DNA of 43,067 nt, from positions 1-43,067 of the forward strand of contig CANMJR010000024.1 in NCBI GenBank assembly GCA_947498025.1, read 5' to 3'. This DNA is from Helicobacteraceae bacterium (GTDB taxonomy: Bacteria; Campylobacterota; Campylobacteria; Campylobacterales; Sulfurimonadaceae). Each line of letters opens with the position of its first letter. The stretch's first letter is position 1. Under the pieces are notes generated by a model. That model saw nothing but the letters and a program-made list of their open reading frames with translations. It had not been told where the DNA came from and did no database searches. The position numbers were made by a program, and so were the translations under genes. Shown here in pieces: positions 1 to 40,988 of the stretch.

Positions 1-312
1 TTGGTATATCTTTGTTTTTTGATTATGCAGTGATGGAAACTTTTTTTTGAGTAAATTTATCACTTTTATTTGTTGTTTTGGTGTTAGTAACATTGCCTTT
101 TTTAATCTATTATCTGTTAATTGTTTTTGTAAAAATTTTTTATTTGCAGTAGAAACATGTAATTCTTTATTTACCGTCTTTTTATTCTTTTTTATAGTTA
201 TTTTAATTCCGCTATTAATCACTTTATCTCTAGCTTCAATTAGACTTTTTAGATGTTTGTTTTTAAACTCTTCTGCAAAAGGTTTATTTTGTTTTATATC
301 AAGACTTAACAT
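1..312 (-). CDS. Partial gene, partner of the upstream ATPase; product unknown
   Basis: The minus strand is open from an ATG at 312 to the left edge: 104 codons with no stop, so the 3' end is missing. It begins MLSLDIKQNKPF and is lysine-rich, without a recognisable motif in the visible part. The start lies inside the end of the ATPase gene, overlapping it by 14 bases, which argues for translational coupling and a joint function. In similar gene pairs known from other bacteria the second gene often encodes an HNH-type nuclease whose motif lies in the C-terminal half. That half is not in this window, so the nuclease idea is inference only. The plus-strand reading of this stretch is low-complexity hydrophobic and looks like a shadow. 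Confidence 0.6.
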   Translation of the reverse strand, partial: MLSLDIKQNKPFAEEFKNKHLKSLIEARDKVINSGIKITIKKNKKTVNKELHVSTANKKFLQKQLTDNRLKKAMLLTPKQQIKVINLLKKKFPSLHNQKTKIYQ

Positions 313-2185
313 TTTCACTCTTTTGTTTTTTCAGTTGCTCTATTTTTAGATTAATTTTTTCTTGTTGCTTTTGTAACTCTTCTAGTTCATCATCTAAACC
401 AAATTTTTCATTGTACATTTGTTCTAATTTTGTTTGTAAAAAAGGCTCACCAATTATAGAAATAATTAGTTTACAAGTTTTTATTTCATTTTTAGATAAT
501 TGTTCTTTTTTTAACAATGCAATTACTTCATTGATTTTACCTTTTGCAAACTCACCCATAAGCCCATCTTTCATAAAAAAAACATGAGAAAGTAAAGTGT
601 GAATATTCGCTCCAAATGGATTTATATTTACTGTTTCACTTATATTTTCTCCATTTTTGAGAAAAATTATATTTTGTTTCATAAGGTCAGAAAGAATAAA
701 AGGAGAATGAGTAGAAATTATAAAATGAAATTTTTTCTCTCGATTTGAAAATACTTCTATTAAGTAAGTGAGTAATTTTTTTTGCCATTCAGGGTGCATA
801 TCATTCGCTGGTTCATCTAAAATAACAAGTATATTTTTTTGCTCAAAATTATTTAAAATATCTTCAATATAAAAGCGTATTCTAAGTGCCGATTTTTCAC
901 CATTGCTTAAGTCGTTATACTCTGCATTTTTAATATTATCAAAAATAAAAATATTAAAAACATCAAAAGGTATTTTTGTTAATAAATTTACATTTTCTTT
1001 ATTGATATTTTGAATTTTTACTTTAATAGATGTTCTTCCATGTTCTAAAATAGATTCAATTGCTTTTTCTGAGTTGTTTAATATATCTAAATACTCAAAA
1101 TATTTTTTCATCTTTAATAGTTTTGATGGAGATCTGCTCCCTTTTCTTGTACCATCTTGTTCAAAAGAGGAATCGAATAACTTTAAAATATCTTCTTTTT
1201 TACTTTTTATCTGAGTATCTAATTTATCGAATGATTCGCAGGTTTCAACTAAGTTTAATACTTCATTCCGTTTTTCTTTTAAGTTATTATTTGTAAAAAT
1301 CAAGTGTACTATTGAATAATATATTAAAAACTTTAAATATTTTTGTGTCGTTAAATTAGACTCACGAATATTTTTTAAATTACTAAAATTTTCAAATAAA
1401 GCATCATCTAACTTTTGTCTAAATTCAATTTGAGACGGATTAAAATAATTTGTAGATAAAATAGACGATTGATTAGAAATTAAAGATTCTAAAATTTTAA
1501 TTTTATCATATTCAAAATTTGTAAGAATGTTGTCATTGCCATCTGTACCATCTTTTTTAGGAACACAACGAATCATCAATTCATTTTCATCATATAACTC
1601 TTTAATATTTACTAAAGAATTTGGAGAGCTATTACTCATACTTTTTTCACGGACATACGGACGAAAGCATGAAAAAGAGTAATCATAATGTAAAACAAAT
1701 AATTGTTTTTTTAATTCTTCACATTGATTAAGTAAAAATTCAAGATTACTAGCTTCTATTTTTTTTTGTTGGCATAACAGTCTTGTATTATTTACAATAG
1801 TTACTTCTGTATCAGCTTTTGTTTTACCAATGATATACAAGTTTGATGCATCAGCAAGAATAAAATAAATTGTTTCAGCAAAATATAAATGTTGAATATA
1901 TTCAGCCTGTGTTTTAGTTGAATTTTGTTCTTGAGTTTTTGATAAAAAAATAAAGAAACCATCTAATGTTTCTATTAACATTTCAATAAGACTACTCTTT
2001 CCACTCCCATTCTCTCCAACAACTGCTGTAACATTAATATTATCAGCAAAAAAGTTTTCTATATGTTCTTTTGGTTTGATGTCTAACACTCCATCCTTAT
2101 ACTTACATGTAAACCTCGGCGAAAAGTTAAACCCTTGCTTTTCAATATTTTTATACTTTTCAACCCACAAATAAACTAGTTCCAT
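299..2185 (-). CDS. AAA/ABC-type ATPase (OLD/RecF-like, AAA_15/AAA_21 group), candidate defence ATPase
   Basis: This is a 628-residue ATPase of the SMC/RecF-like class. Visible motifs are Walker A GENGSGKSS at residues 57-65, an ABC signature-like LSNGEKSALR shortly before Walker B, Walker B ILVILDEPANDMHPEW near residue 450-465, and the H-loop ISTHSPF some 30 residues later. Between Walker A and the signature is a long insert (about 350 residues) with heptad-like helices; the C-terminus ends in a lysine/glutamate-rich coiled coil. Proteins of this build power several anti-phage systems (Septu PtuA, AbiL, PARIS AriA) and act with an effector encoded next door, which fits the overlapping downstream gene. 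The start ATG directly follows the stop of the upstream fragment (TAG-ATG). The gene is clearly more AT-rich than the housekeeping part of the window, a sign of transfer. The ATPase class is secure; the defence role is inference. Confidence 0.85.
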   Translation of the reverse strand: MELVYLWVEKYKNIEKQGFNFSPRFTCKYKDGVLDIKPKEHIENFFADNINVTAVVGENGSGKSSLIEMLIETLDGFFIFLSKTQEQNSTKTQAEYIQHLYFAETIYFILADASNLYIIGKTKADTEVTIVNNTRLLCQQKKIEASNLEFLLNQCEELKKQLFVLHYDYSFSCFRPYVREKSMSNSSPNSLVNIKELYDENELMIRCVPKKDGTDGNDNILTNFEYDKIKILESLISNQSSILSTNYFNPSQIEFRQKLDDALFENFSNLKNIRESNLTTQKYLKFLIYYSIVHLIFTNNNLKEKRNEVLNLVETCESFDKLDTQIKSKKEDILKLFDSSFEQDGTRKGSRSPSKLLKMKKYFEYLDILNNSEKAIESILEHGRTSIKVKIQNINKENVNLLTKIPFDVFNIFIFDNIKNAEYNDLSNGEKSALRIRFYIEDILNNFEQKNILVILDEPANDMHPEWQKKLLTYLIEVFSNREKKFHFIISTHSPFILSDLMKQNIIFLKNGENISETVNINPFGANIHTLLSHVFFMKDGLMGEFAKGKINEVIALLKKEQLSKNEIKTCKLIISIIGEPFLQTKLEQMYNEKFGLDDELEELQKQQEKINLKIEQLKKQKSENVKS

Positions 2186-2545
2186 CTATTCCTCATCTCT
2201 CATCATTCCAAGTTCCAAAACATCTCTCTCAATCTCCGCCTTCAACTCTTCTTCACTCGGCAAATACAACTGATATTTCGACACGAACAGATTTTCATTG
2301 TCGTTTAAAACGGAGTATTTTACGACTGTATTGTCTTTGTCTGCACTGAGTATGATTCCGATGGTCGGGTTATCGTTTTTTTCTTTTTCCATGTCGTCAT
2401 ACATTCGCACATACATGTCCATCTGACCTACATCTTGGTGGGTCAGTTTGCCTTTTTTGAGGTCTATTATGACAAAACATTTCAAGATGTAATTGTAAAA
2501 AACTTGTTTATGAGAAGGTGACTGTAAAAATTGATTTAGTTGCAT
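2186..2545 (-). pseudogene. C-terminal remnant of a DUF1016/YhcG-type PDDEXK nuclease
   Basis: The 119-residue reading frame matches only the last third of YhcG/DUF1016 proteins, which are normally about 330-370 residues. It has the typical FVIIDLKKGKL strand carrying the D-x-K part of the PD-(D/E)XK site, then GQMDMYVRMYDD and NPTIGIILSADKDN. The N-terminal DUF1016 domain and the first catalytic acidic residue (in the family's F-x-IDLLFY segment) are absent. The first dozen residues (MQLNQFLQSPSHK) do not look like the family, so the breakpoint lies just before VFYNYILKCF. The reading frame begins inside the end of the toxin gene. It is probably inactive, a scar of a deletion joining this gene to the toxin-antitoxin module. 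Confidence 0.7.
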
Positions 2546-2835
2546 GAGAAACCTTGATTGTTGTCATATTTTTCATGATGAATAAGTGCAAAAACAGAAA
2601 TTGTCTCATCTTCAATTATATAAATAATCGTGTAACCCTTAAATATCAAGTCTCTAATGTTCTCATCTTTATGATAGATTGATTTTCTATGTTTATATGG
2701 CATATGTGAAATATCTTTACATGATGCAAACAACTCGTTTTTAAATTTTCTAGCTGAGCGAGGGTTGTCTTTTGCTATATATTCTAGCTTTAGAGCCAAA
2801 GAGTGAATGAAACTCTCTTCAAATCTAATGTTCAT
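2536..2835 (-). CDS. RelE/ParE-family toxin
   Basis: A 99-residue protein with the RelE/ParE fold pattern: an N-terminal helix pair (residues about 5-45, with NPRSARKFKNEL typical of the family), then the strand run DENIRDLIFKGYTIIYIIEDETISVFALIHHEK. Family members are either ribosome-dependent mRNA endonucleases or gyrase poisons; the sequence alone does not say which. It is encoded downstream of, and overlaps by 11 bases, the antitoxin gene, the usual order for Phd/YefM-RelE modules. Its 3' end overlaps the nuclease remnant by 10 bases, so the last residues may derive from the junction. Confidence 0.8.
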   Translation of the reverse strand: MNIRFEESFIHSLALKLEYIAKDNPRSARKFKNELFASCKDISHMPYKHRKSIYHKDENIRDLIFKGYTIIYIIEDETISVFALIHHEKYDNNQGFSCN

Positions 2836-3142
2836 ACGCTTTTATCGCCGCATCAAGCTTAGCCTCTGTTTCTTCAATAGAGTAAAATTTAGCCGTACCG
2901 CTTTTTATTTTTTCTACTTGAGAAGCTACAAACTTTCTATCTTCTTCAAAGAGTGCTTTTTGAACCTCTTTTTGAATCATTTTTTCAAAATCTTCACTTT
3001 TTAAAAGTATAAAATCAAGTTTGTTATTTTTTAAAATACCTACTTTCTCCAACTCATTTTTATAGAGCTTTGATGTTATTGTTGCAAAATTTTTTGCAAC
3101 TTCTGTTGCACTAAACAGTTCATTTGTATTGTAAGACACCAT
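2825..3142 (-). CDS. Phd/YefM-type antitoxin
   Basis: A 105-residue protein with an N-terminal Phd/YefM-like segment (LFSATEVAKNFATITSKLYKNELEKVGILKNN, described here in part) in which a short helix-strand unit is followed by IDFILLKSEDFEKM-like residues, then a charged, probably disordered C-terminal tail that would wrap the toxin. It should neutralise the partner encoded 3' of it and repress the operon by binding the repeats just upstream. An AAGGAG ribosome binding site sits 7-8 bases before the ATG. It is first in the operon, the normal order for this class. Confidence 0.8.
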   Translation of the reverse strand: MVSYNTNELFSATEVAKNFATITSKLYKNELEKVGILKNNKLDFILLKSEDFEKMIQKEVQKALFEEDRKFVASQVEKIKSGTAKFYSIEETEAKLDAAIKAYEH

Positions 3143-3263: not shown

Positions 3264-4602
3264 TCATGCTTTCGCCTTGCTCCCGTAAAACCAGTAAATA
3301 GCCATGCCTATCGCTGACCAGCCTATAAATCGCATCCATGTCTCAAACGGCAGTCCAGCCATCGTGAAGATGATGAGGATAAAACTTAGAGGCATGAGTA
3401 TTTTGAATGCCGGCATCTGGAACTCCGGTTTCATGCTCTTTTGTTTTCGCAACACTATTATCGCAACACTCACCATCAAATAGGCAAAAAGGGTTCCTAT
3501 GTTTACAAGTTCTGCCAAAGTTTTAAGGGGTATAAGCCCCGCCGATGATTGTCGCTTTAAAGGGTGTGTTGTATTTTGGATGAAGCTCGCTCAAGCTCTT
3601 CGTAATAAGCCCGTCTCGTGAGAGTGCAAACAGAATTCTCGTAAACCCTAATCCCATAACAAGCATGACGGTCGTAATCGTAATCACCGCACCCAGAGCA
3701 ATGACATTTGCGGCGAACGGTTCGTTGACTTTGTAGAGTGCAAACGCCAATGCATCGGGAACATTAAGCTCTTGGTAAGGAACAATCGCCGTGAGGGTGA
3801 AGCTCACCAAAATGAAGAAAACAACGCTGAGAATGAGTGACAAAATAAGTCCCCATGGGATATTCTTTCTCGGGTTTTTTGTCTCTTCTGCCACGGTGCT
3901 GATTGCGTCAAAGCCCAAATATGCAAACATGATGAGTGAAGAGGCATGCCAAACACCCTCCCATCCGAAAGGCATAAAGTTGCTCAAATTGTTAAAATCA
4001 ACATGCGGCAAACCAACAAATACAAAGACCGATAACACGATGAGTTTGATGAAAACTATGACTGTATTGACTCTTGCACTCTCTTTGATACCAATCGCCA
4101 AAAGAACGAAAATAAGTAACACAATGCTGAATGCACTGATGTCGATGTATGTGCCGTTTGCAGGGCTGAATGCACCGCTAAGCGCATGCGGCATTGTGAT
4201 GCCCATGCTATTTTCTAAAAAGCGTCTTAAATATCCAGACCAGCCCGTCGCCACCGCTGCAGTTGCAACGCCGTATTCAAGGAGAAGATTCCACCCGACA
4301 AACCATGCAAACATTTCACCCAAACTTGCAAATGTAAAACTATAGGCACTTCCGGCAACGGGATATGCGGAGCTGAGTTCTGCATAAATAAGAGCAACAA
4401 TTGCAATCATCACACCGCTGAGCAAGAAGGATAAAATTATCGCTGGACCTGCCATGGTTGCGGCTGCCTGACCTGTTATTACAAAAATTCCCGAGCCTAT
4501 AACCGCACCAACACCTATAAATGTAACATCCAAAAGTCCAAGCTTTCTCTCGAAACTTCCGCCGCTGCCCGAGAGGTCTTTTTTGTAAAACAGATTCCGC
4601 AT
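3264..4602 (-). pseudogene. APC-family amino-acid permease, disrupted by an out-of-frame deletion
   Basis: Two reading frames together make one APC-superfamily (YfnA/CAT-like) permease. The first (3523-4602, 359 residues) carries the family start KLGLLDVTFIGVGAVIGSGIF and runs through about nine membrane segments to HPKYNTPFKATIIGG, then stops. The second (3264-3518) continues with AELVNIGTLFAYLMVSVAIIVLRKQ and the last membrane segments. In intact relatives the two parts are joined by a short membrane stretch (KATI-I-T-G about nine residues A-G-F-I-P-L). Here GLIPLKTLAELVNIG is readable in the other frame directly after the stop, so about eight codons plus one frame step are missing, between two short GGCGG/GCAGGG-like sequences. 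Either this is a natural deletion or an assembly fault. Without repair, the product lacks its last membrane segments. Confidence 0.8.
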
Positions 4603-4791
4603 GTGTTGCCCTTAATAAAATTATTATGAATTTATAGGTTGATTTTAAAGGGTATTATTATAGTGAAAGAGGCTTAAATATGAGGTAATTTGTTATTGAA
4701 TCAAATTTAGATAGAAATATTTTGCTATTAGAAAAACCTAAGATTTTATATATTGATACTTTCCTGATATGATCTCTGCTACACTTCCGGC

Positions 4792-6855
4792 ATGAAAAAC
4801 ACTATCCTTTTATATATCGCCATTATCGCTTTTTTCGGTAGCGGAATCGCCTATGTCCTCCATATAGGAAGCAACTTAGAGAGTGCAACCATCTTATATG
4901 CTGTTCTGCCCCATACAACGCTAAGTTCAGGTTTGATTGAAAATTTCCTGAAGCAATTACACCATCCGTTAGCTCTTTTGCTGATTCAGATTATTGTGAT
5001 TATGGTAGCTACCCGTTTTTTCGGTTTTTTAGTCTCTTTTGTCGCACAGCCTACGGTTGTAGGAGAAATTATCGCAGGAATAATCCTTGGACCATCCTTG
5101 TTGGGGCTATTTTTTCCTGAATTTTCTATCCTTTTATTCCCAAAAGAGTCATTGAGCAATCTCAGTCTCATCAGTCAGCTCGGGTTAATCTTTTTCATGT
5201 TTGTCGTCGGAATGGAACTTGATTTCGAAAAAATAAAAAAACAATCAAGTGCTTCGGTTTTTATCAGTCATGCCAGTATTATCTTCCCTTTCTTCTTAGG
5301 AGTAGTCCTATCCTACTGGCTCTATCCTCTGTTTGCTCCCAAAAATGTTTTGTTCATGCCGTTTGCCCTTTTTATCGGGATTGCCATGAGTATCACTGCC
5401 TTTCCTGTTTTAGCCCGTATTATCAAAGAAAAAAATCTCACAGATACCCGCTACGGCGCGATGGCAATTACCTGCGCCGCAACGGATGACATCACCGCAT
5501 GGTATATTTTAGCCCTCATAATCACCCTCTCGATTTCCGGAACACTAGGCTCATCCCTATTTTTATTACTCTTTATCGCTCTGTATATTGTTATTATGTT
5601 TTATGGCATTCGTCCTCTTCTCGCTAAAATTGGGCGTACTCAAAGTGAACGGCTCAGTATGAATGGTATGTCAGCCATCGTGGTCTTGCTCCTCATCTCT
5701 TCACTGATTACCGAAGCAATCGGCATTCACGCCCTATTCGGTGCTTTTATGGCGGGAACCATGATGCCCTCTTCTGCAACTTCTAGACTCAAAGAGCTGA
5801 TTGCTTCGCGTTTGGAATATGTCAGTCTTCTCGTATTACTCCCTCTATTTTTTGCCCTTACCGGGCTTCGAGCAGAGATTGGACTGCTCAATACGAGTGA
5901 TGCATGGCTTGTTTGCGGACTCATTATCATTGTTGCCGTCACTGGAAAATTGTTTGGAAGTTCGTTAGCGTCAAAATTTATGGGCTTTAATTGGCGGGAT
6001 TCCTTTGCGTTGGGAATACTGATGAACACGCGAGGATTAATGGAACTAGTTGTATTAAACATCGGCTATGATATGGGGATTCTCTCGACGGAACTCTTTA
6101 CAATGTTTGTCATCATGGCACTGGTAACCACTTTTATGACCGGACCGATATTGACCTTATTAACCAAAGATTCGAAACAAGATCGTATTGTTGCTACCAT
6201 GCAAAAAAGTTTACTTGACCTTTTATCCCACGAACTTAGAACCCCTTTAACACTTATTCTAGGTGCTGCTACTAATCTTGCAAATCGAAATTTCATCCTT
6301 GCAGCAAACGACAAGGAAGCCATGATTCAAACCATTGTAGAGGGGTCACGCCGTATGGAAAAAGTAATAGACAACCTACTCGTCAATGCACGCTTTCGTG
6401 AGCAAAGAACACCTCTAAATATGACGATGGGACGATTGGAGGAGGTGGTTTCATCTGCATTATCTATAGCCGAAAATGACTGGCATCGACAAGCTAAACT
6501 CTCTTTAAGTGCCGATTTTCCACCTATTACGGCAGATTTTACTCTGCTTCAATTAGCAATTGGAAATCTACTGGACAATGCATTTAAATATGGTGATGAG
6601 GTAAGCGTCGAGATGACATTTGCATTTAATGAACTCTATTTAGTAATTTGCAATAACGGAAATCTCCCCTCAGCCGATACAATTAGCACACTTGGTACTA
6701 CCTCAGGTCGGTTGGATAATGCTCAAGGTAAACCGGGGTCGGGGATTGGTTTACGGCTTTCTCAAACCATTATCGAAGCACATGGTGGAAAATTGATGAT
6801 AGAGATGGAAAATGACCATTTTTGTGTTCGGGTGACACTGCGCGGTGAATCATGA
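4792..6855 (+). CDS. CHX/Kef-type cation:proton antiporter fused to a KdpD-like histidine kinase
   Basis: A 687-residue fusion. Residues about 1-455 form a CPA2 Na+(K+)/H+ exchanger domain with 12-13 hydrophobic segments. Family marks include VGEIIAGIILGPSLLG, the substrate-site region AITCAATDDITAW, and GILMNTRGLMELVVLNIG, which resembles CHX/Kef exchangers. Residues about 470-687 are a complete kinase core: H-box LLSHELRTPLT with His480, N-box GNLLDNAFKYG, and G2 box GKPGSGIGLRLSQ; the G1 box reads ICNNG rather than D-x-G. The H-box and the next helix resemble KdpD more than other kinases. There is no PAS or HAMP, so the transporter domain itself must be the sensor, as in CbrA/PrlS where a sodium-solute symporter domain plays this role. 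The gene overlaps its regulator by four bases (ATGA). Likely role: reporting K+/Na+ or pH status. Ion specificity is unknown. Confidence 0.88.
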   Translation: MKNTILLYIAIIAFFGSGIAYVLHIGSNLESATILYAVLPHTTLSSGLIENFLKQLHHPLALLLIQIIVIMVATRFFGFLVSFVAQPTVVGEIIAGIILGPSLLGLFFPEFSILLFPKESLSNLSLISQLGLIFFMFVVGMELDFEKIKKQSSASVFISHASIIFPFFLGVVLSYWLYPLFAPKNVLFMPFALFIGIAMSITAFPVLARIIKEKNLTDTRYGAMAITCAATDDITAWYILALIITLSISGTLGSSLFLLLFIALYIVIMFYGIRPLLAKIGRTQSERLSMNGMSAIVVLLLISSLITEAIGIHALFGAFMAGTMMPSSATSRLKELIASRLEYVSLLVLLPLFFALTGLRAEIGLLNTSDAWLVCGLIIIVAVTGKLFGSSLASKFMGFNWRDSFALGILMNTRGLMELVVLNIGYDMGILSTELFTMFVIMALVTTFMTGPILTLLTKDSKQDRIVATMQKSLLDLLSHELRTPLTLILGAATNLANRNFILAANDKEAMIQTIVEGSRRMEKVIDNLLVNARFREQRTPLNMTMGRLEEVVSSALSIAENDWHRQAKLSLSADFPPITADFTLLQLAIGNLLDNAFKYGDEVSVEMTFAFNELYLVICNNGNLPSADTISTLGTTSGRLDNAQGKPGSGIGLRLSQTIIEAHGGKLMIEMENDHFCVRVTLRGES

Positions 6856-7532
6856 CGCCCCATATCCTGATTATAGACGATGATCCATCCATCCGCCGTT
6901 TGCTTGCGATGACACTGGCATTCGCAGGATTTATGACGGAAACGGCGGCGACAGGAAAAGATGGGTTAAAAAAAGGCTCTGATAAACATTTCGATTTGAT
7001 TCTACTTGATTTGGGATTGCCGGATATGAGCGGTGTAAAGTTTTTAGAGCGTTATCGTAAAGATGAAGAAACTCCCGTGATTATCGTATCTGCAATCCAT
7101 GATGAATTAGACAAAATAGCTGCGCTGAATGCCGGAGCCGATGATTATGTGACCAAACCTTTTAGTACAGATGAACTTATTGCCCGCATACAAGCAAATT
7201 TGCGTCGTTTACTTCCGACATCGACTATCCCATCACTTTTAGTTGTCGGTGCAATAACGATGGATATATCATGTAGAGTAGTTACAATCGATAACATAAG
7301 TATCAAACTCACGCCCAAAGAGTTTAAACTTCTCCGAGTTTTTATGGAAAACCACGGTAAAGCACTTACCCATTCATGGCTTTTAAAAACTATATGGGGA
7401 ATCGGTTATCAGCATGAGACGCACTATTTGCGTGTTTTCATCAATCAACTACGCCAAAAAATAGAAGCAGATCCCACCCGTCCGAAGCGAATCGTCACAG
7501 AAACGGGAATTGGCTATCGGTTTGTTGGATAA
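6852..7532 (+). CDS. KdpE-like OmpR-family response regulator
   Basis: A 226-residue regulator. The receiver domain (1-120) has the acidic pocket IIDDD, phospho-acceptor Asp53 in LILLDLGLPDMSG, a Ser in IIVSA and the switch Lys in YVTKPF. The winged helix (about 130-226) has LTPKEFKLLRVF, the recognition region and the terminal TETGIGYRFVG. The segments KIAALNAGADDY, HYLRVFINQLRQKIE and TETGIGYRF closely follow KdpE. It is coupled to the antiporter-kinase by a four-base overlap and should be its phosphorylation partner. Neither a kdpFABC operon nor another K+ transporter lies in the window, so its targets are not known; the adjacent antiporter gene itself is one possibility. Confidence 0.9.
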   Translation: MTPHILIIDDDPSIRRLLAMTLAFAGFMTETAATGKDGLKKGSDKHFDLILLDLGLPDMSGVKFLERYRKDEETPVIIVSAIHDELDKIAALNAGADDYVTKPFSTDELIARIQANLRRLLPTSTIPSLLVVGAITMDISCRVVTIDNISIKLTPKEFKLLRVFMENHGKALTHSWLLKTIWGIGYQHETHYLRVFINQLRQKIEADPTRPKRIVTETGIGYRFVG

Positions 7533-7762: not shown

Positions 7763-7861
7763 ATGAAAATAGCCATCCCGGTAAAAGATGAGAATTTAAC
7801 ATTTTTCGGCAATGCAGGACATACTCCAAACTTTGCTATATTTGATATGAACGGAGTATGA
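7763..7861 (+). pseudogene. Truncated NifX/NafY-like (dinitrogenase Fe-Mo cofactor) domain protein
   Basis: An ATG-started frame of 32 residues reads MKIAIPVKDENLTFFGNAG and then HTPNFAIFDMNGV. This is the N-terminal strand pattern of NifX/NafY/NifB-C-terminal-like domains, which bind iron-sulfur or Fe-Mo clusters and are usually 100-130 residues. The frame stops immediately afterwards, the stop overlapping the hrpB start by ATGA. The last two thirds are missing. It appears to be a remnant left by a deletion that joined it to hrpB; it may still serve as a leader that couples translation to hrpB. Confidence 0.6.
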
Positions 7862-40292: not shown

Positions 40293-40988
40293 CTAAAAGC
40301 ATATTTTTTTACTCCTTTTATGATAATTACAAAGTTGATAATCAGAAGTTTTAATCCTTGGAATTTTTCTATTTGGTCTAATTTGTACGGGATTTGTTCT
40401 GAATAATTTTTCTAATCGTTCTAGTAAATCGGTTGGAGGGTTTTGATCAAATAAAAGTTCTAGTGCTTGATTCTTAATGGCATTAAATGATACAGCATGA
40501 TTTACCTGTTGTTTATTCAGAGTTTTTTTCTGTTTGAGTTCTTCATTTATATCGCTTGTTAATATCGTTTCAAGACCACTAAGGTATATTGTAGAATAAA
40601 AATCTTGATATATTGAATGAGCCGTTTTACCTGAAAAGTTTTCAAGGGTTAATCTATTTTTGATAATGCCATAAAATTCTTCCACTCCCCAGCGTAAATA
40701 ATAAATATCTTTAAACTCATCGGTTGGGAACTCTACTTCATCAAGCAGGTTAGTCACTAACACTTCATACTCTCCTGTTGAGAGAGTAACACGAACAAAT
40801 CTTACTTTTATATTTTTTGGTAAATTAAACTTTTCAATCTCTTTGTCTTTTGTGTGATGTACTTCAAGAGTAATGGTTCTATCACTTGAACCTTCACCTG
40901 CAAGCATTTGTCGTGCTTCTTTAAAAGATGCACGAGAACAACGCATTACAAACTTCTTGCCTGCTTTACAAAGAGTGGATAAGTGGGG
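40293..40988 (-). pseudogene. IS4-family transposase, C-terminal fragment
   Basis: The frame from 40988 (no start; ATG at 40946) to 40293 encodes the C-terminal half of an IS4-type DDE transposase. The YREK box is visible in IYYLRWGVEEFYGIIKNRL (Y-x2-R-x3-E-x6-K), preceded by VRFVRVTLSTGEYEVLVTNL. The N-terminal DNA-binding part and the first catalytic Asp are missing; full proteins have about 370-450 residues. The frame opens after a TGA that lies near the right-hand 15-bp repeat. It cannot be active. The end CTGCCATTAAGTTAAGAAC beyond its stop is probably the IS right terminus. Confidence 0.8.

Follow-up and report, generated by a model that had tools for sequence, protein, structure and literature searches.

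Can a whole ion exchanger serve as the sensor of a histidine kinase? This question is raised by two overlapping genes on contig CANMJR010000024.1 of a Helicobacteraceae bacterium (Sulfurimonadaceae; assembly GCA_947498025.1), of which positions 1 to 43,067, here called the window, were analyzed. A single open reading frame (ORF) of 687 amino acids joins a complete ion exchanger directly to the signaling half of a K+-sensing kinase, and its own regulator, an ORF of 226 amino acids, lies beside it with an overlap of 4 bases (ATGA). Such fusions occur in a small group of sulfur-oxidizing bacteria, and through the ion transporter the cell probably senses salt or K+ stress.

With moderate confidence we read the pair as a K+-linked two-component system that uses a whole antiporter as sensor and acts by operator control of its own operon and of kup/kdpFABC. 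The two genes would form a self-contained system for monovalent-cation homeostasis, in which the last membrane helix of a CPA2 antiporter, which in NapA and KefC belongs to the moving core domain, is predicted to continue without a break as helix 1 of a KdpD-type kinase core. This helix may convey to the DHp bundle whether an ion or proton is bound at the DD site, or whether the exchanger faces inward or outward, and kinase versus phosphatase activity would be set there. The regulator would bind KdpE-type operators, thereby controlling its own operon and, where present, kup/kdpFABC. At the sequence level this explanation is supported by the fusion itself, its intact site and the constraint on it, an operator-like site, and the K+ gene neighborhood in relatives. 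Sensing by the exchanger, helical coupling, the targets of the regulator and the ion that is read are what we infer.

How the moving core of a transporter drives a histidine kinase is an open question; for CbrA, a transporter domain and a histidine kinase in one chain called a transceptor, the coupling is said to be not yet understood (PMC13022988). The short junction without an extra domain and the predicted output (KdpE-type operator, kup/kdp) would make transport and signaling measurable on one small protein, for which unfused orthologs are natural controls. The system also bears on what KdpD-type kinases sense, because the KdpD sensor half is swapped for an ion exchanger and the K+ regulon apparently kept.

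A KdpD-like kinase core and a KdpE-like regulator

The two genes contain the following features.

4792..6855, plus strand: exchanger-kinase fusion, 687 amino acids (ORF, Pfam, relatives)
4795..4872, plus strand: extra N-terminal helix, residues 2-27, ahead of the 13 NapA-like helices (predicted model)
4966..6165, plus strand: CPA2 exchanger module, residues 59-458, NapA fold with broken helices 200-204 and 411-416 (Pfam, NapA alignment, model, Foldseek, VIA-align)
5485..5490, plus strand: Asp232-Asp233, DD motif of the ion site, D156-D157 of NapA (NapA alignment; 39 of 39 exchanger rows)
5947..5949, plus strand: Lys386, K305 of NapA (NapA alignment; 39 of 39 rows)
6031..6045, plus strand: Arg414 to Glu418 in the broken transmembrane helix (TM) 12 (Arg in 39, Glu in 29 of 39 rows)
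6088..6282, plus strand: single predicted helix 433-497, the last exchanger helix running into DHp helix 1 (predicted model)
6208..6393, plus strand: HisKA/DHp with phospho-acceptor His480 in HELRTP (Pfam, alignment)
6538..6840, plus strand: HATPase_c with N box GNLLDNAFKYG, variant G1 box Asn621-Asn-Gly623 and G2 box GKPGSGIGL (Pfam, alignment)
6852..7532, plus strand: KdpE-like OmpR-family regulator, 226 amino acids, Asp53 (ORF, Pfam, NCBIfam, PDB alignment)

A Pfam scan of the fusion returned Na_H_Exchanger at residues 75-457 (E 6.3e-55), HisKA at 473-534 and HATPase_c at 583-683, and neither PAS nor HAMP nor any other domain between exchanger and HisKA. The regulator matched Response_reg and Trans_reg_C. 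These results bear out the original prediction, made from the sequence alone, of an exchanger-kinase fusion without PAS or HAMP between its halves and with a KdpE-like regulator adjacent; the phospho-acceptors His480 and Asp53 are also found in the translations as it had named them. The nearest relatives in the PDB are NapA, KdpD (6lgq) and KdpE.

Among the NCBIfam models the nearest kinase equivalog is KdpD (PRK10490), with 83.5 bits over the kinase core and a cut-off of 1123, and the nearest regulator model is KdpE (PRK10529), with 217.7 bits. KdpE had been said to be followed closely; it is the nearest model, but the score lies under the cut-off of 325. By these scores the pair is best described as KdpD/KdpE-like and not as KdpD/KdpE equivalogs. 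The core of KdpD-type DHp and CA domains is present, 6lgq also being the top-scoring kinase in the PDB. The KdpD ATP-binding domain (PF02702) and Usp, both contained in the full KdpD of the relative L065, were not found in the fusion by the Pfam scan, nor was the four-helix DUF4118 sensor region. Thus the fusion differs from KdpD in that the ATP-binding domain, Usp, the DUF4118 region and GAF are all replaced by the exchanger, while it resembles the KdpD/KdpE system in its kinase core and regulator, in a KdpE-type operator and in the kdp/kup neighbors of its relatives.

His480, the N box and the G2 box are intact. The G1 box ICNNG had been called atypical, and its first Asn indeed occupies the position of the G1 Asp in 6lgq. 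This is not a local defect: the Asn was found in 10 of 10 fusions (the complete copies that were aligned, without the split copies of the genomes G192 and G212) and in all 24 related kinases from the same phylum, so that the variant represents a lineage trait rather than decay of the fusion. The regulator has the expected receiver and winged-helix domains, the acceptor Asp53 and the DNA-contacting Arg/Arg/Thr; by our count in the alignment its R194, R201 and T216 correspond to the DNA-contact residues R193, R200 and T215 of E. coli KdpE (PMC3264566).

In the kinase tree the fused kinase is placed with short DUF4118 kinases whose genes follow kup, and apart from full KdpD (bootstrap 99; Shimodaira-Hasegawa approximate likelihood-ratio test, SH-aLRT, 97). 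The regulator groups more weakly with the regulators of these kinases (SH-aLRT 82). The kup-linked short KdpD-like kinases are the nearest kinases to the fusion (35-37% identity; their regulators 53-59%), and one is encoded in the window genome itself (L076 3129-4807). The same operator precedes most Sulfuricurvum kup genes seen. These kinases differ from the fusion in having a DUF4118 sensor half in place of the exchanger.

The exchanger half and known transporter-fused kinases

Both the Na_H_Exchanger domain and a NapA-like fold are present, as is typical of CPA2 antiporters; the score against TIGR00932 was 145.8, under the cut-off of 238.3. The predicted model (63 aligned rows, mean predicted local distance difference test, pLDDT, 73.9) replaced a poor first model (pLDDT 43) that was not used. 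It shows two broken crossing helices and, by our count, the 13 NapA helices plus one extra N-terminal helix. An N-terminal stretch matching this extra helix also occurs in the displayed unfused rows from Campylobacterales and Bacteroidota. Foldseek with the model placed NapA (5bz2) on top (E 4.7e-14), followed by histidine kinases, and VIA-align superposed it on NapA with Z 41.0 and a root-mean-square deviation of 2.9 over 378 residues.

In the alignment to NapA, Asp232-Asp233 and Lys386 fall on the known site residues, and Arg414 and Glu418 lie in the broken TM12. No exception to the DD motif, Lys and Arg was seen in the 39 rows (10 fusions, 12 unfused Campylobacterales, 7 Bacteroidota and 10 NapA-like sequences), and Glu418 is absent from the 10 NapA-like rows only. 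A second alignment was made without L027 (stops), L044 and others. Conservation of a TDD site had been set as a test of the fusion. D232, D233, K386, R414 and E418 are invariant in the 10 complete fusions, but the Thr varies (Thr in 5, Ala in 5; Ala in all 12 unfused Campylobacterales orthologs). The tested NapA site residues are the same in fusions as in unfused orthologs.

The ratio of nonsynonymous to synonymous substitution rates (dN/dS) of the exchanger was 0.03-0.08 in 8 pairs and below the kinase value in 7 of them; 75% of the exchanger columns are invariant versus 51% in the kinase. Values for unfused exchangers, which came from an ungapped pairing, were not used. These rates indicate strong purifying selection on the exchanger, and judged from its sequence the transporter looks active.

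The exchanger had originally been assigned to a CHX/Kef class; by sequence the site is of the NapA type with DD, not of the Kef type with QD. KefC, which also combines a CPA fold with C-terminal regulatory domains, has QD and RCK domains and is read as electroneutral (PMC11150392). In the fusion no RCK/TrkA domain was found by the Pfam scan, and 10 of 10 copies carry DD, so that the features of KefC are missing and the site is of the type associated in NapA with electrogenic exchange. NapA itself shares the fold, the DD motif, Lys305 and the TM12 Arg at 22-23% identity, and the fusion adds the N-terminal helix and the C-terminal kinase. A CPA fold with C-terminal regulatory domains is also known from the eukaryotic sperm Na+/H+ exchanger SLC9C1, in which the attached voltage-sensor and cyclic-nucleotide domains control transport and not a kinase output.

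The closest precedents in architecture are transporters joined to kinases. Ks-Amt5 of Kuenenia stuttgartiensis is an ammonium transporter joined to DHp-CA without PAS, HAMP or STAC, and its transport is lost (PMC5764959). In both proteins a whole transporter module sits directly on DHp-CA; Ks-Amt5 differs by its trimeric Amt, the lost transport and another ion, while our fusion has a CPA2 exchanger with intact site residues, a KdpE-type regulator and a K+ context. CbrA and the SLC5-STAC histidine kinases of the CrbS and RpuS type (PMC9100948, PMC5715377) likewise hold transporter and kinase in a single chain, with another transporter fold and a STAC linker. The Pfam scan of the fusion found no Amt, SLC5 or STAC domain. 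The fusion thus works like the transporter-kinase sensors Ks-Amt5 and CbrA, is a member of neither, and is built on an antiporter. Searches of the open-access PMC library turned up no paper recognized as describing a fused exchanger and kinase. The passage on transporter-fused kinases in one review names Ks-Amt5, and the words 'antiporter' and 'exchanger' are absent from its main text (PMC8534201).

The example of Ks-Amt5 suggests that the exchanger could be a pure ion receptor that binds without transporting. Such a loss of transport is unlikely here, given that all tested NapA site residues are kept as in the unfused orthologs and that the exchanger is under strong purifying selection.

K+ gene neighborhood and predicted operator

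In 5 of 11 relatives the pair is located behind kup and/or kdpABCDE: both precede it in G197 and G192, kdpABCDE in G213, and kup-kdpDE in G180 and G212 (kdpA was named from its position and our reference, kdpB and kdpC also by Pfam). The absence of kdpFABC near the fusion, noted in the original prediction, therefore holds for the window and not for these relatives, where kdp and/or kup lie directly upstream. Two elements were recognized just before the fusion gene.

4753..4770, plus strand: predicted KdpE-type operator TTGATA-CTTTC-CTGATA-T, two half-sites of 6 bp around a 5-bp spacer, start codon 21 bp downstream (kup-site matrix score 19.4)
4780..4785, plus strand: TACACT, a -10-like hexamer and putative promoter element 6 bp before the ATG, kept before 11 of 12 fusion genes (L066 differs)

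The fusion transcript is possibly leaderless. All 12 fusion genes share the block of half-sites and spacer just before the ATG, and its geometry equals that of the E. coli KdpE site TTTATA-N5-TTTACA (PMC3264566). To build the matrix, 13 sites were chosen by eye in the promoters of 22 different kup genes (23 starts, one of them present twice); no fusion promoter was used. Its hit at 4753 is the sole site of at least 14 in the 43 kb (next best 11.5), and 19.4 was reached anywhere in 3 of 200 shuffled windows. A total of 231,912 bp, comprising 14 stretches chosen as holding these genes, contained 21 sites of at least 14. Of these, 11 are located upstream of fusion genes and 6 upstream of kup, including 2 training sites; 3 more precede two small genes of kdp-kup clusters, and the last is inside kdpD. 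As homologs of one another, the fusion promoters do not provide independent sites, and the L068 fusion site scores just 11.6.

Sites were present before 16 of the 22 kup genes, 13 of which had trained the matrix. The training sites scored 21.1-28.5 when left out one at a time, and three untrained kup genes (L065 twice, L073) reached 15.9-18.9. The remaining 6 genes (L076/L163, L148, L152, L164, L165, L166) have no site, with scores of -4.2 to 8.3. For four kdpA genes that were checked, a site of 20.9 was found about 180 bp upstream in G213, sites of 14.1 and 15.2 within 190 bp in G214, and weak ones (9.6, 10.2) at about 170 bp in the other two. The possibility that the operator marks the fusion specifically was rejected, since the same sites also stand before kup in genomes without the fusion.

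The regulon had been called open. From the neighborhood in the five relatives and the operator before the fusion, it most likely comprises K+ uptake (kup/kdp) and autoregulation. The fusion regulator and the kup-linked KdpE of G180 have nearly the same recognition regions. In Sulfuricurvum these paralogous regulators most likely act on shared operators, and in the window genome the fusion operon would at least control itself.

Further candidates emerged from these searches. Two small genes in kdp-kup clusters (L065 5247-5672 and 7607-8026) encode 141 amino acids without a family and 139 amino acids with an Lcl_C domain. KdpE-type operators precede the former in L070 and L073 and the latter in L073, which makes both candidate members of the K+ regulon. 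At L111 1444-3563 (G207) a 432-amino-acid frame at a TrkH match stands beside a 226-amino-acid frame with weak KdpE similarity (24%), and an operator-like site (score 15.3) lies between them.

Distribution, origin and reshuffling of the fusion

A scan of a contig collection, done with a single protein and thus suited to close relatives only, found the same fusion at 81-94% identity in metagenome-assembled genomes of Sulfuricurvum or Campylobacterales. Among GTDB genomes it occurs in 11 of 41 of the sister genus g16 (Sulfuricurvum), at 76-94% identity, and in 1 of 135 of the window's own genus, namely the window genome. The regulator adjoins the fusion in all 12. Two of the 11 Sulfuricurvum copies (G192, G212) are split over two contigs; the G192 pieces overlap by 66 identical residues and so most simply represent one gene. 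The guanine-plus-cytosine (GC) content of the window (0.36) falls within the range of nine pieces of the same genome (0.31-0.39; two pieces overlapping), which gives no indication of bin contamination; that of the fusion is 0.42.

Outside this group the search covered two phyla, with the top 2-3 candidates per genome scored. Matches were obtained in 35 of 296 Bacteroidota and 49 of 398 Pseudomonadota genomes, and none of the matches listed spanned exchanger and kinase. The longest (G844), reaching position 523, holds no kinase. No kinase domain was present either in the exchanger ORFs of 34 loci in the two phyla, which represent 32 different genes, some of them truncated by the end of the stretch. 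Of 72,556 plasmid records 66 matched, none over more than 80% of the query. At L015 4384-8262 (Paludibacter), genes for a His_kinase-domain protein and a response regulator stand directly before one for a CHX-type exchanger of 785 amino acids without a kinase; this is a case in Bacteroidota of an unfused exchanger next to a two-component system. At L122 2094-3128 (plus strand), in Pseudomonadota genome G903, a frame with a match to the HisKA region is divergent to an unfused exchanger.

Separate genes in close relatives had been named as an observation that would speak for an artefact. Unfused exchangers do exist, and they show where the exchanger part came from. From 398 Campylobacterales genomes drawn from a larger group, with 2 candidates scored in each, 12 hold an unfused ortholog of 459-475 amino acids and 49-62% identity that stops a few residues past the last exchanger helix, which is the fusion point. 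In G498 (L090) it is located directly behind kdpABCDE. In G274 (L101) it lies beside a molybdopterin-oxidoreductase cluster, and 7 of the 11 Sulfuricurvum genomes with the fusion have a related cluster next to it (46.6, 38.5 and 29.8% identity for three proteins and a short fourth match; L068, L070 and L071 were compared with L064, and the count of 7 comes from the gene listing). In G274 the exchanger thus stands unfused at what seems to be the same locus. Together with these unfused exchangers, the grouping of the kinase with kup-linked DUF4118 kinases is most simply explained by a KdpD-like kinase in which an exchanger took the place of the membrane sensor. In the kinase tree the window copy falls within the g16 copies, so acquisition from Sulfuricurvum would be the simplest history. 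Genes flanking the pair in relatives include no close match to window genes (best 35-38%, a GGDEF-type protein).

The halves have been shuffled since the fusion, by domain swapping at the junction. Between G197 and G196 the exchangers are 97% and the kinases 78% identical, with synonymous rates (dS) of 0.23 versus 1.56; across L064, L065 and L066 (fusions of G196, G197 and G207) the exchanger halves are 93-97% and the kinase halves 63-78% identical. Like its kinase, the L065 regulator departs from the L064 clade in the regulator tree. Six NapA-like rows were not included in the exchanger tree. At L063 (G205) the pair stands, by eye, between a 111-amino-acid fragment and a full 980-amino-acid copy of seemingly the same gene family, as if inserted, and a 978-amino-acid relative, also noted by eye, follows the pair in G192 (L074).

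Junction, coupling and alternative explanations

In the model the last membrane helix continues as one helix (433-497) through His480, and the junction length is unchanged in the 10 aligned copies. TM13 of KefC is part of the core domain (PMC11150392), and this domain moves in an elevator mechanism; coupling of exchanger to kinase through the helix is therefore possible on the model. In a more specific form of this idea, which we put forward only tentatively and hold to be somewhat improbable, the protein is a working electrogenic antiporter and a kinase at once: the elevator movement would turn or shift the TM13-DHp helix, and the cell would read direction or rate of exchange, and thereby its own ion and proton gradients, to set its K+ uptake genes. 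We know of no earlier flux-reading kinase based on an antiporter.

Several observations weigh against the K+-linked sensor that we favor. The model is at its least certain in the joining helix (residues 460-474 with pLDDT <50). The core domains of NapA-type exchangers sit away from the dimer axis, so the weakly modeled linker must bring the two DHp helices together. The fusion kinases are on a long branch of the tree, which warns of long-branch joins. When the copies of the window, G205 and G196 are compared pairwise, all three pairs give a slightly higher dN for the exchanger than for the kinase, so that the exchanger does not evolve more slowly in every case. Eight genomes without the fusion have the same operator before kup; it may thus belong to the kup-linked KdpE, and the window genome's own kup promoter is without it (best score 1.3). 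Kup and KdpC, the latter alone standing for kdp, were surveyed in 33 of 42 genomes (the window genome and 32 of 41; the nine left out were fusion-negative and less than 90% complete). Three fusion genomes (G208, G211 and the 81%-complete G196) had neither detected, and genomes with and without the fusion did not differ significantly in kup/kdp presence (8 of 11 versus 10 of 21, Fisher p 0.27). TrkH was found in all 12 fusion genomes.

These operator and survey data can also be taken to place the pair under the K+ regulon and not in control of it: the kup-linked KdpE would switch on the fusion, whose regulator would then control unrelated genes (pH, Na+, osmotic). The matching operators in fusion-negative genomes and the three genomes without detected Kup and KdpC fit this view, which we nonetheless judge improbable: recognition regions near-identical to those of the G180 kup-linked KdpE lead one to expect shared targets, and in the window genome the operator precedes the fusion even though the kup promoter has none.

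It is a little more doubtful still that the two halves are merely co-located, with an ordinary antiporter fused for co-expression to a kinase that reads cytoplasmic pH or ions via DHp/CA or a partner protein. Unfused orthologs exist, one of them directly behind kdpABCDE, the partly separate histories of the halves (G197 versus G196) indicate that exchange is tolerated, and pH sensing at the DHp level is listed for HK853 (PMC8534201); but the Pfam scan found no cytoplasmic sensor domain in the fusion, the junction length is constant, and swapped copies keep kinase and exchanger joined. An assembly artefact or decaying gene, as the single occurrence among 135 genomes of the genus and the frame-broken adjoining permease might suggest, is ruled out for practical purposes by the same fusion in 12 genomes, purifying selection and the conserved upstream block.

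Other features of the window

Next to the fusion, a gene for a BcaP-like amino-acid permease (3264-4602, minus strand) is split near 3520 into two frames of 359 and 84 amino acids by either a frameshift or an assembly error. Farther upstream, a low-GC island (299-3142, minus strand; 0.25 in the largest gene) encodes an AAA ATPase (AAA_21), a piece of a YhcG-type PDDEXK nuclease and a ParE-family toxin with a possible antitoxin partner that has no Pfam match. Rfam gave no match at the gathering score in the window, and a weak match to a DDE transposase domain at 40293-40946 (minus strand) is below the cut-off. Directly before the hrpB helicase gene lies a short coding remnant (7763-7858, plus strand), whose first residues presumably resemble the NifX/dinitrogenase-cofactor family.

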